A DNA stretch of 31,208 nt from a virus. The stretch spans positions 1-31,208 of the IMG/VR virus record IMGVR_UViG_3300001533_000415; one strand, 5' to 3'. The position numbers and the translations under genes are program-made. Positions 2,796 to 10,381 of the stretch are shown in pieces; the stretch's first letter is position 1, and every line of letters starts with the position of its first letter. The notes beneath the pieces are model-generated. The model did not search any database. It saw nothing but the letters and a program-made list of their open reading frames with translations, and was not told the origin of the DNA.

Positions 2796-3227
2796 ATGAG
2801 TGGTGAGACTGACAAGGAGGTTTTGCCCACAGAGGCGGGTGAACAAAGGGTTAGCAGTGAGGAGGAGTTCCGCCCAACCCCGGCCATGATTTTATGGGCT
2901 GACACAAAAGCTCGAATGGTCGGAGAGCCTAATACAGTAATAGCGGAAGAGGCTAACATAGCGGAGCAAACCTTTTACCGATGGCGTAGAACCATACCTG
3001 GATTCATGGATTGGTATATACAGGAATATCGTAAGAGGCGTTACAGAATAATTCCTGAACTAGACGAGTTAACCATGAAGTATGCTAAAAGAGGCAGCTT
3101 TCAACACCTTGAGCTTATGACCAAAAAGGTTGGTGATTACCCGCAAGAAGCTCCAACACAAGCAACTCAGGTAGTCGTCAACAACGTAGTAGAAAAGCAG
3201 AAAGATAAATACAACCTGGATGAATAA
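2796..3227 (+). CDS. Terminase small subunit (helix-turn-helix)
   Basis: This 143-residue protein lies directly before the large terminase and has the expected size. Residues about 30-70 form a helix-turn-helix: WADTKARMVGEPNTVIAEEA, then NIAEQTFYRWRRTIPGF, like the phBC6A51-type small terminases. It would bind the packaging site on phage DNA and deliver it to the motor. The C-terminal part carries an Asp/Glu/Lys helix and a polar tail that may contact the large subunit. Its 3' end overlaps the large-subunit start by 8 nt, which suggests coupled translation. The call rests on position, size and the helix-turn-helix. Confidence 0.75.
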   Translation: MSGETDKEVLPTEAGEQRVSSEEEFRPTPAMILWADTKARMVGEPNTVIAEEANIAEQTFYRWRRTIPGFMDWYIQEYRKRRYRIIPELDELTMKYAKRGSFQHLELMTKKVGDYPQEAPTQATQVVVNNVVEKQKDKYNLDE

Positions 3228-4029
3228 GGGTTACAAAGATTTTATCGAGGAAAACCTAAAGATCGTAAACAAAGAAGGTGAGCTGGTTGACTTCGTTCTA
3301 AATGATGTCCAAAGGAAGTTTATCACTGAGGATATAACTGGTAGAGATATCGTACTCAAGGCAAGGCAACAAGGCTTCTCGTCAGTTATTCTAGGGCTCT
3401 ATACAGCGGACTTTCTTCTCAAGGAACATACCTTCAATGTTGTAGTAGCAGACGACACAGATAACGCCAAAGGACTTCTAAAGCGGGTTAAAGATTTTGT
3501 TAACTTCTGGTGTGAGGCAAACGGTCTTGAGGCCAAAAACATCCTCCGCTATAACTCCAAGTACGAGCTTTACTTTGAGGAGATGGACAGTACCTATGTT
3601 ATTGGTACAGCACAGAACACTAACTTTGGTAGGTCTAAAACAATTACAAATCTTCACTTATCGGAGGCGGCGTTCTACCCCCATTTTAGGGAGATAATCG
3701 CAGGAGCCATGCAGGCAGTAGTACCAACAGGAAGGGCAATTATTGAGACAACAGCCAACGGTTTTAATGAGTTCAAGACTTACTGGGATGAGACTAAGCG
3801 AGGTGAAACATCCTTCACAGGCCACTTCTACCCCGCACAAGACTTCTACTCAGCGGATTTTCTAACCCAAAAGGAAACAGAGCTGGGCAGGCTCTTTAAG
3901 CAGGAATACCCCAGATCCCCGCAAGATGCCTTCATAACATCGGGGGATAACTACTTCTCACAAGACGCTTTGGAGTACTACCTGAGGGCAGTTAAAGAGC
4001 CAATAAAAGAGGGAGTTATTTATGTTTAG
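3220..4029 (+). CDS. terL: Terminase large subunit, ATPase part
   Basis: This 269-residue product is the N-terminal motor domain of a large terminase, which drives DNA into the prohead through the portal. An adenine-binding-like motif LNDVQRKF lies at 27-34, a terminase-type Walker A KARQQGFSS at 47-55, a Walker B NLHLSE with catalytic E149 at 144-149, and a coupling motif ETTANGF at 176-182. It ends YV followed by two TAG codons (4027 and 4030); the nuclease domain continues in the same frame at 4039. Complete phage large terminases carry both domains in about 450-550 residues, so this is half of one. Natural split, recent nonsense mutation, suppression or a sequencing error are all possible. 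Confidence 0.88.
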   Translation: MNKGYKDFIEENLKIVNKEGELVDFVLNDVQRKFITEDITGRDIVLKARQQGFSSVILGLYTADFLLKEHTFNVVVADDTDNAKGLLKRVKDFVNFWCEANGLEAKNILRYNSKYELYFEEMDSTYVIGTAQNTNFGRSKTITNLHLSEAAFYPHFREIIAGAMQAVVPTGRAIIETTANGFNEFKTYWDETKRGETSFTGHFYPAQDFYSADFLTQKETELGRLFKQEYPRSPQDAFITSGDNYFSQDALEYYLRAVKEPIKEGVIYV

Positions 4030-4038
4030 TAGAGTGTC

Positions 4039-4695
4039 ATGAGCTTCAGACAATATCGCCCCATTGAGAGCGGGGAGTTTCTAGTAGCGGGTTTTGATAT
4101 GGCTATGGGAGGTCCCGACTATTCAGCGTGTGCGTTTATCTCAAAGACTAAAGTTGATATACCCCTTATCTACCACGCACATGCCATAGCAACAGAAGCC
4201 ACAAATGAGGTTGTCCCGGTGCTTGAGAAGATCTACCAGAAGACAGGAGTACCCCCTGTAATAGCCCCGGAGCGAAATAGCGGGGGAGTATTTGAGATTG
4301 ACAGGATGGTGGCTATGAACAGGACGGGTAACTTTAAAATATTCAAAGAGCCCACAGGAGTAGGCTCCACATCAAACCCAGAGGAGAGGCGTTACGGCTG
4401 GACTACTACTTCAACTACAAGACCCAAGATGCTTGAGGATTTGAAAAACGCCATAGACAATAGGCTTCTTGGTATTTATGACAGTGAGCTTGTAAACGAG
4501 ATGTTTGCATTTGTTGTTAACCAATCTACTACTGGCTGGAAAGCACAGGCAGAGTCCGGGGCGCATGACGACATAGTTATGGCCGCAGCAATTGCTTTTC
4601 AAGTCTATCAGAAGGAGGAACAACCAAGGGACCTAGACTCGTTGATGCAGGAGTTACCCGACGACAAGTTATTTACAGGAGGATTTTATGGATAA
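4039..4695 (+). CDS. terL: Terminase large subunit, RNase H-fold nuclease part
   Basis: This 218-residue product is the C-terminal nuclease domain that cuts the concatemer at the start and end of packaging. Acidic metal ligands are D20 in VAGFDMAMGG, E78 in APERN and D177/D178 in GAHDDIV, the usual pattern of terminase nucleases. It is in the same frame as the ATPase part, separated only by TAG TAG AGT GTC. No good ribosome binding site precedes the ATG at 4039, so translation may rely on coupling or read-through. Joined, the two parts span 3220-4695, about 491 residues, normal for an intact large terminase. Its 3' end overlaps the next gene by 8 nt. Confidence 0.88.
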   Translation: MSFRQYRPIESGEFLVAGFDMAMGGPDYSACAFISKTKVDIPLIYHAHAIATEATNEVVPVLEKIYQKTGVPPVIAPERNSGGVFEIDRMVAMNRTGNFKIFKEPTGVGSTSNPEERRYGWTTTSTTRPKMLEDLKNAIDNRLLGIYDSELVNEMFAFVVNQSTTGWKAQAESGAHDDIVMAAAIAFQVYQKEEQPRDLDSLMQELPDDKLFTGGFYG

Positions 4696-8515: not shown

Positions 8516-8557
8516 ATGGCACAAAGTACAGCAACATTATCGTACGATGCAGTAGGT
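8516..8557 (+). CDS. Major capsid protein, 5' exon
   Basis: The first 14 codons of the capsid gene read MAQSTATLSYDAVG, with GAGAGGTGA 7-10 nt before the ATG. Without splicing the frame runs into a TGA at 8564 after 16 residues. After removal of 8558-9529 the protein continues NREDLLDV, giving YDAVGNREDL, which matches the opening of DUF5309-type (SU10-like) capsid proteins. The exon ends in U, as group I introns require, and its last nine bases pair with the intron guide at 9299-9307. Confidence 0.85.
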
Positions 8558-9529
8558 CAATTATGATATACTTCATGTCATGAGTATCAGAAAATATGAC
8601 ACGCAATGGTTGAAAGACCAGTACATTAAAAACAAAAAATCGGCAGTACAAATCGCAAAAGAGTTAGGGGTTACAAGTGGGGCAATATACTCGGCTATGA
8701 GTACTCGTGGGATAAAGAGGCGGAGTAATAGTGACTCACACAGGATTGAGAGCAATTACCCACAACTTTGGGATGAGGAATATCTTAAAAGGCGTTATTT
8801 GGGGGACGGCATGACCACAGGGGAAATAGCTAGGGAGTTGGGTTGTCATGACGAGTCTGTTAGAAAGGCACTTATAAGACTGGGCATACCCCGCAGAAAG
8901 CTAGGCACTAGGGTTATAGTAGATGAGTTAAGAGACGGTGGCTGGCTATATAACCAATATGTGAGGTGTAATAAAACACAGGCACAAATAGCGGAGGAGC
9001 TAGATTGCGGAGAAACCGTAGTCAATAAGTGGGTAAAGTTACACAAGATATCCAAGCCCACTAGGTGGTCTGGTAATGACTTTAAGGAGTCCACAAGCCA
9101 GAGGAATTCCCTCAAGTATAGCTCTTGGAGAAAGTCTGTTATTGCGAGGGATGGGAGGTGTACGAGGTGCGGAGTCACAAAGAGACTTCAGGCACATCAC
9201 ATTGAATCTTTTGCACATAACAAGGATTTGCGATTTAACATAGATAACGGGGTTACTCTATGTCAAAACTGCCACAGAAAGGAGCACTCTTCACGGAGGC
9301 TTACTGCAAAAACAAAAACTGGGTGAAACGGGGAATACCTTTGAGAAAAGACAATCCCGTACCAAGGCATACAGGACTTAGGTTGTGTGCAAGGTCTAAC
9401 GACTAGATGGTGAGTTCCAACAATAACCCATCCACGAGCGCCCGGCACACTAAAAAAATGTGAAGATATAGTCTGACCTTATTAGTGATAATAAGAGGTG
9501 GTAATTAAAAAAGCCACGATAACAAATTG
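8558..9529 (+). ncRNA. Group I intron in the major capsid gene
   Basis: This 972-nt self-splicing intron ends in G and follows an exon ending in U. P1: exon GCAGTAGGT (8549-8557) pairs over 9 bp with GCTTACTGC (9299-9307), with U-G at the splice site. P10: CACGG (9292-9296) pairs with CCGTG (9532-9536) of the 3' exon. The core resembles the T4 td intron: ACGGGGAA with CAATCCCGT (9328-9359), P7 GACTA (9401-9405) with TAGTC (9469-9473), in contexts TAACGACTA and AGATATAGTCT. A following 7-bp hairpin (9478-9495) with a GTGA tetraloop fits P9. The endonuclease frame fills the P1 loop. Confidence 0.93.
8580..9326 (+). CDS. Intron-encoded HNH homing endonuclease with three helix-turn-helix repeats
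   Basis: The 248-residue protein would cut intron-less capsid genes so that the intron is copied in. Three helix-turn-helix units (residues about 8-48, 64-106, 121-160) share QIAKELG, EIARELG and QIAEELD cores and probably read the long target. The HNH nuclease at about 179-236 has CTRCG, AHHI, NIDNGVTLC and QNCHRKEH, giving two Cys-x2-Cys pairs and the catalytic HH, N and H. There is no clear ribosome binding site; the ATG follows a small hairpin (8563-8580). The 3' end also encodes the intron guide sequence (9299-9307), so P1 formation and translation of the gene's end exclude each other. Confidence 0.93.
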   Translation: MSIRKYDTQWLKDQYIKNKKSAVQIAKELGVTSGAIYSAMSTRGIKRRSNSDSHRIESNYPQLWDEEYLKRRYLGDGMTTGEIARELGCHDESVRKALIRLGIPRRKLGTRVIVDELRDGGWLYNQYVRCNKTQAQIAEELDCGETVVNKWVKLHKISKPTRWSGNDFKESTSQRNSLKYSSWRKSVIARDGRCTRCGVTKRLQAHHIESFAHNKDLRFNIDNGVTLCQNCHRKEHSSRRLTAKTKTG

Positions 9530-10381
9530 AACCGTGAAGACCTTCTCGATGTTATTACTAACATCTCACCAGAAGAGACTCCTTTCCTATCTCGTTTCGG
9601 CAAAGCCAAGGCTTCTAACCGTTACCACGAATGGCTAACGGATAGTTTGGCTTCAGCTACTGAGAACACGAACATTGAAGGAGGCGATTATACCTTCTCC
9701 AAGGCATCTAGCCGTACTAGGGTAGGTAACTACACTCAGATTTTTGTGAATCCCGTTGAAGTCTCCGACACACAGAGAGACATCGACACCGCAGGAATGG
9801 AGGATGAGTTCGCCTATCAAATGGCTAAGGCTATGAAAGAACACGCTAGAGACATCGAGTATGGACTAGTAAATGGAACCGGATATTCCGGGGAATCAGG
9901 GTCCGCTCGTGAGCTTAAAGGTGTTTTAGCTTGGTTAACAACTAACGTTGAGACCGGCACCGGTACAGGAGATGAGGATCTAACTGAAGATATGTTCAAC
10001 GATTTGCTACAAAGTATTTGGGATGAGGGTGGCTCGCCTACAACGGCATACGCCAACGGTTACCAGAAAAGGCAAATCTCCGACTTTACAGGAGGAGCAA
10101 CCAAGAACATTGACTCTGATGAGAAAGAGGTTGTAAGAGGTGTAGATGTTTACGATTCTGACTTCGGTCGAATCAAGATCGTTCCTCACCGATTCATGAC
10201 CACATCAGTAGTTTCAGTCCTTCAGGACGATCTATGGAAAGTAGCGACACTGCGTCCTACTAAAAAAGTTGACGTAGCTAAGGTTGGTTCTGCCACCAGA
10301 GCAGTCATCGAAACTGAACTTACACTAGAATCTCGTCAAGAGGCTGGTTCAGGACAGATTACAGGTCTTGCGACCTCCTAA
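9530..10381 (+). CDS. Major capsid protein, 3' exon
   Basis: This is the main exon of the capsid gene: 283 residues after splicing, about 297 in all. It opens NREDLLDVITNISPEETPFL, a typical start for DUF5309/SU10-like HK97-fold capsid proteins, and goes on with the acidic E-loop and peripheral regions (SDTQRDIDTAGMEDEFAYQM; MKEHARDIEYGLVNG). The C-terminal part (KIVPHRFM, VLQDDLWKVATLRPT) is beta-rich, as in that fold. It lies after the scaffold and before a terminator. Read alone the exon lacks a proper start; the TTG at 9527 is intron sequence. The product forms the head shell. Confidence 0.9.
   Translation, partial: NREDLLDVITNISPEETPFLSRFGKAKASNRYHEWLTDSLASATENTNIEGGDYTFSKASSRTRVGNYTQIFVNPVEVSDTQRDIDTAGMEDEFAYQMAKAMKEHARDIEYGLVNGTGYSGESGSARELKGVLAWLTTNVETGTGTGDEDLTEDMFNDLLQSIWDEGGSPTTAYANGYQKRQISDFTGGATKNIDSDEKEVVRGVDVYDSDFGRIKIVPHRFMTTSVVSVLQDDLWKVATLRPTKKVDVAKVGSATRAVIETELTLESRQEAGSGQITGLATS

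Follow-up and report, generated by a model that had tools for sequence, protein, structure and literature searches.

How can a phage express its major capsid gene when the gene is interrupted, after codon 14, by an intron whose guide sequences are also the last codons of an endonuclease gene? This arrangement was found on a single metagenomic virus record, IMGVR_UViG_3300001533_000415, whose 31,208 bases are called here the window. The locus is composed of the following features:

8516 to 8557, + strand: capsid exon 1, 14 codons MAQSTATLSYDAVG, with the Shine-Dalgarno sequence GAGAGGTG upstream (anti-SD energy -9.2); homologues read MAQxxxxLTYDAVGNREDL.
8558 to 9529, + strand: group I intron of 972 nt, of which the omega-G (9529) is the last base (RF00028; junction of the homologues; tail CGATAACA..G).
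8580 to 9326, + strand: HNH homing-endonuclease-like gene, 248 aa, with several HTH repeats followed by the HNH domain (aa 194-237) (Pfam HNH and HTH families; PHROGs HNH families).
9530 to 10381, + strand: capsid exon 2, SU10_MCP (PF17236, 1e-94; phrog_1328, major head protein).

Joining 8557 to 9530 gives YDAVG/NREDL, exactly as in intronless capsid homologues. In viral contigs 18 relatives (32-75% identity) read across the intron site and most are uninterrupted, e.g. L001 (MAQASALLTYDAVGNREDLSDIITNISPEETP). The junction cannot be slid by one base: the first bases of intron and exon 2 differ (C and A), as do the last bases of exon 1 and intron (T and G). The tail CGATAACA..G is conserved across related introns. 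The covariance-model search that a preliminary description of this DNA had proposed gave a single Rfam match in the window, RF00028 at 9254-9495 (55.8 bits for a gathering threshold of 50, E 9e-12). That description had a group I intron splitting the capsid gene, with ends at 8557/9530 and the product YDAVGNREDL; the RF00028 match and the uninterrupted homologues confirm it. The element is a td-like group I intron (group IA-type), hosted by the SU10-family major capsid gene of a tailed, SU10-like phage.

Capsid-like genes of other viral contigs (L079, L074, L081, L059, L057 and L033) carry group I introns at other sites, some apparently in the SU10 family. In L016 (2172-3001) an intron-like insert apparently interrupts an SU10-family capsid gene at yet another position, ahead of HEWLEDEL; it contains a LAGLIDADG-like frame that ends just before a P7-like GATATAGTC, and Rfam has no match to the insert. 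Elsewhere in the window (3220-4695) two in-frame TAG codons in succession (4027-4032) divide the large terminase; its halves share a frame, and the second has its own ATG at 4039. Since other genes of the window use TAG as a normal stop, the terminase is a split gene, a case of readthrough or an error.

The core of the intron was located as follows:

9319 to 9495, + strand: catalytic core, P3 to P9, P7.1 present and P2 absent (RF00028; 10-core alignment).
9319 to 9325, + strand: 5' strand of P3, which contains part of the HNH stop codon 9324-9326 (covariation).

Covariation was read from an alignment of 10 cores of viral contigs with similar P3-P4. Of the P3 cells 69 of 70 are paired, and two of its pairs show compensatory changes; for P7.1 the figures are 49 of 50 cells and four of five pairs. 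Such changes affect all seven pairs of P6a and several pairs each of P5, P6 and P8. P4 and P7 are invariant over the 10 cores and thus uninformative either way; P9 is poorly aligned in this set. A P7.1-type insertion between P7 and P3 is a mark used for subgroup IA. Judged by this insertion and by core covariation, the intron is of subgroup IA and td-like, which bears out the td-like core announced for this locus: P3-P9 with P4 and P7 elements, the RF00028 match and the P7.1-type insertion. The P4 motif ACGGGGAA...GACAATCCCGT is common to the window core and to T4 td. The guide is joined to P3 by a linker of ten nt, nearly all A (9309-9318). The first stem of RF00028 falls on 9258-9281, on the 5' side of the guide, and was not accepted as P2. 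A large share of the td-like cores of viral contigs is hosted by psbA-like (D1) genes, at at least two positions (L151, L153, L161, L171 and others).

Both splice sites are marked by guide helices:

8548 to 8557, + strand: 5' strand of P1, in the exon, its 3'-most base being the U at the 5' splice site (10-bp helix with 9299-9308).
9299 to 9308, + strand: internal guide sequence, i.e. 3' strand of P1, within the HNH frame (10-bp helix with 8548-8557; unconstrained folding).
9288 to 9296, + strand: intron strand of P10, within the HNH frame (9 Watson-Crick pairs with 9532-9540).
9532 to 9540, + strand: 3' exon strand of P10 (9 Watson-Crick pairs with 9288-9296).

P1 pairs UGCAGUAGGU with GCUUACUGCA over 10 bp, U8557-G9299 being the splice-site U-G; P10 pairs UCUUCACGG with CCGUGAAGA over 9 bp, at a 2-nt gap from P1, and the omega-G is G9529. 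The two pairings and the U-G had been recognised in the preliminary description, but both helices are longer than it stated (9 bp for P1, 8549-8557 with 9299-9307; 9292-9296 with 9532-9536 for P10). A P1 of at least 9 bp at most 40 nt from P3 occurred in 1 of 1000 dinucleotide shuffles. Summed P1 and P10 stacking is -34.0 in the window and -27.4 in the next best of the other viral introns (automatic best-pair search, open joined frames), and between guide and ligated exons 19 of 21 positions are paired (-28.7 kcal/mol). Free thermodynamic folding of the precursor RNA, also suggested beforehand, recovers P1 unprompted at p ~0.9, across a 741-nt loop, when the 3' exon is left out; when it is included P10 appears instead, at p ~0.9. 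The two are never displayed together because P1/P10 is a pseudoknot, beyond the program. With 10 and 9 pairs respectively, P1 and P10 exceed the ~6-7 and 3-5 of short-loop introns in the same sample, for which the automatic calls are rough. Over a long upstream range the automatic splice-site search is noisy for other introns; solved cases are L148, L188, L216 and the window. The extra length of P1 and P10 here may compensate for the penalty of so large a loop.

The intron could in principle be a degenerate remnant, the capsid gene being broken or restarted at TTG 9527, a start that does open a frame. But the core, P1, P10, the omega-G and both open frames are intact, the residues of exon 1 agree with the homologues, and TTG 9527 is a mechanically listed start; we consider a remnant very improbable. 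Self-splicing through the two helices, which define both splice sites, is the most likely fate of this RNA.

The HNH catalytic domain and its DNA-binding modules lie inside the intron (Pfam, PHROGs), so the gene is an intron-encoded HNH. Its entire frame (8580-9326) is located between the 5' splice site and P3, i.e. in the P1 loop, as first described, and it overlaps P1 at the guide (9299-9308), an arrangement of the Synechocystis type. Codons 237-243 (SSRRLTA) are the guide, and the last codons hold the guide strands of both P1 and P10. That the guide falls within these codons was thus correct; the overlap nevertheless extends further, the stop TGA 9324-9326 lying in P3 (9319-9325). No close relative of the intron or of HNH was found by DNA search in phages, nor by searching viral contigs and genome contigs with protein patterns; the guide-plus-P3 pattern retrieved no near-identical intron, and no PDB relative of the HNH protein was found.

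Such an overlap could be an accident. After inserting into a P1 loop that was still short, the gene may have lost the stop codon it came with, so that the frame ran into the guide and P3; the HNH tail would then be dispensable and the overlap tolerated, with no switch. This creeping into the core is a described process (PMC3073962), and both the Pfam HNH domain (aa 237) and the tblastn matches to phage HNH proteins (aa 232-239) end just 5' of the guide codons. Some PHROGs HNH profiles, however, align to aa 240-246, so the tail may not be free, and P1 and P10 are unusually long for the lineage, resembling an adjustment to the long loop. We had considered that HNH homology stops before the guide; given these PHROGs profiles this is only partly true.

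Placement of the gene was compared in about 223 viral cores (102 + 121), chosen by sequence patterns and not at random. An endonuclease-like gene lies 5' of P3 in about 5 of these other cores (L148, L264, L257, L267 and L096), with weak support for L257 (DUF723 only, on a contig that stops inside the core) and for L096 (NUMOD1 only); L083, with no Pfam domain, and L201, with a free-standing HNH upstream of a gene-free intron, were excluded from the count. The P1-side placement is rare but recurrent, in line with the earlier statement that phage introns usually carry such genes elsewhere. In L201 (575-1254) the free-standing HNH is directly upstream of the capsid-like gene that hosts the intron, which is compatible with collaborative homing.

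The exact P3-P4 pattern matches four viral contigs, L188, L216, L258 and L259, with exons that appear capsid-like (ITREAIELFVNSNAFIKNIDRQFDDEF; RRNMVPLDPDRFS...NQDAMIRLIGWAGN) when their translations are judged by eye. L216 was solved: it has the same core as the window, no P2, the IGS just 5' of P3, and a P1 of 7 bp (GAACGCU/GGCGUUC) that closes a gene-free 10-nt loop, with the junction NSNA/FIKN. It shows the P1 loop in its gene-free state. In L148 (IMGVR_UViG_3300005831_000060), also solved, the P1 loop is occupied by an unrelated GIY-YIG gene; P1 and P10 have 7 bp each, the junction is GYFQLN/YSTKR, and the P10 strand and the first guide base are the final bases of the gene. L148 resembles the window by a P1 loop filled by an endonuclease gene, the lack of P2 and a P10 strand in the last codons; it differs by its GIY-YIG enzyme, its rIIA-like host gene and a stop codon placed where the guide begins, so that P3 is not overlapped. 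The gene-free L216, and an L148 overlap that covers P10 and only one base of P1, also speak for creeping into the core, and we incline slightly towards such a non-functional origin of the overlap.

Two further features concern translation of the unspliced RNA:

8564 to 8566, + strand: in-frame TGA that closes the unspliced capsid frame and overlaps the ATG at 8563.
8563 to 8583, + strand: six-codon frame MIYFMS, with a TGA overlapping the HNH ATG at 8580; a possible coupling step (anti-SD energy -4.1).

A strong Shine-Dalgarno precedes the capsid start. None precedes the HNH ATG, whose anti-SD energy (+0.6) is the weakest among the starts scored (median -5.5); two ATGA overlaps connect capsid exon 1 to that ATG. 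Together these sequence features suggest reinitiation on unspliced RNA, although ATGA overlaps are common by chance. Genes carried by introns are known for weak or hidden starts, and the stop codon usually comes just inside the intron (PMC3073962). A local hairpin was predicted here that would hide the HNH start together with the 5' splice site, but with z -1.3 it is within chance and was dropped. In L267 (4347-4374), ATATACAG-TGAGGAA-CTGTATAT precedes the start of the HNH/NUMOD gene of a viral intron; this perfect stem would hide the ribosome site, as reported for T4 intron genes.

The best joint explanation, to which we give a probability of about 0.85, is a self-splicing intron of the capsid gene with an HNH homing endonuclease in its P1 loop, in which translation and folding exclude each other and the endonuclease is probably reached by reinitiation. 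The HNH protein most likely spreads the intron, and is predicted to cleave the intronless allele. It would be made solely from unspliced RNA: ribosomes would begin at the capsid start codon, terminate at TGA 8564 and probably reinitiate through the overlapping ATGA sites. The exon strand of P1 would be masked by a ribosome halted at 8564, and the guide, the P10 strand and P3 by one that completes the HNH gene; given these footprints, translation and splicing would be mutually exclusive in space and time on each RNA. Since the guide and the P3 5' strand coincide with the last HNH codons, translation to the end of the gene and formation of P1, P10 and P3 would be incompatible at one moment. A lead ribosome would nevertheless clear the guide shortly after core transcription, so the conflict may be brief.

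A regulatory switch between HNH expression and splicing can reasonably be read from this layout. Its fuller form, in which translational coupling of HNH and capsid on unspliced RNA sets the endonuclease level and delays the capsid until late infection, we hold to be possible but doubtful. The overlap of gene and guide, the ATGA chain, the missing Shine-Dalgarno and the precedent of td (PMC3073962) speak for it; against it, no orthologous intron was found that would show the coupling to be conserved. Still more speculative, and in our opinion unlikely, is a recurrent, unrecognised class of phage introns with the endonuclease in the P1 loop and the guide in its last codons, where capsid translation, HNH synthesis and splicing form one switch through reinitiation from the capsid start codon. 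The interest of the locus is that some 20 nt encode protein and both splice-site guides, with part of the ribozyme core a few nt on, in an essential translated phage gene. Silent recoding can thus put the question of translation versus splicing to the test, with L216 (the sibling lacking the gene) and L148 (the parallel case) as natural comparisons.

Several known introns share parts of this organisation. In the tRNAfMet intron of Synechocystis PCC 6803 the endonuclease frame is also in P1 and overlaps P1/P2, by 61 nt (PMC3073962, Table 1), but the enzyme is a PD-(D/E)XK and the tRNA gene is untranslated, so no ribosome enters from exon 1. The Physarum LSU rDNA intron (PMC3073962) and the fungal cox3-i2 (PMC4964425) likewise have an endonuclease gene in the P1 loop; they differ by an rDNA or organelle setting and other enzyme families, and for Physarum no overlap is recorded. 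T4 td shares with the window an IA-type core and an endonuclease 3' end that overlaps core elements, and translation can block its splicing, a conflict that is established (PMC3073962). Its I-TevI is however a GIY-YIG in the P6 loop overlapping P6a/P6/P7 by 20 nt (PMC3073962), versus an HNH in the P1 loop that overlaps P10, P1 and P3 within a capsid gene. The mycobacteriophage LittleE also has an endonuclease-carrying group I-like intron in its major capsid gene, with splicing proved by RT-PCR and protein sequencing (PMC3706429); there the endonuclease gene is on the opposite strand, the capsid family is another one and the intron structure is not assigned. P1-overlapping frames and the td conflict being already described, the principle is therefore not new. 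What is new, with no claim of priority in phages, is that an HNH gene occupies the P1 loop inside an essential phage gene that is itself translated, and that its frame takes in strands of P10, P1 and P3 alike.
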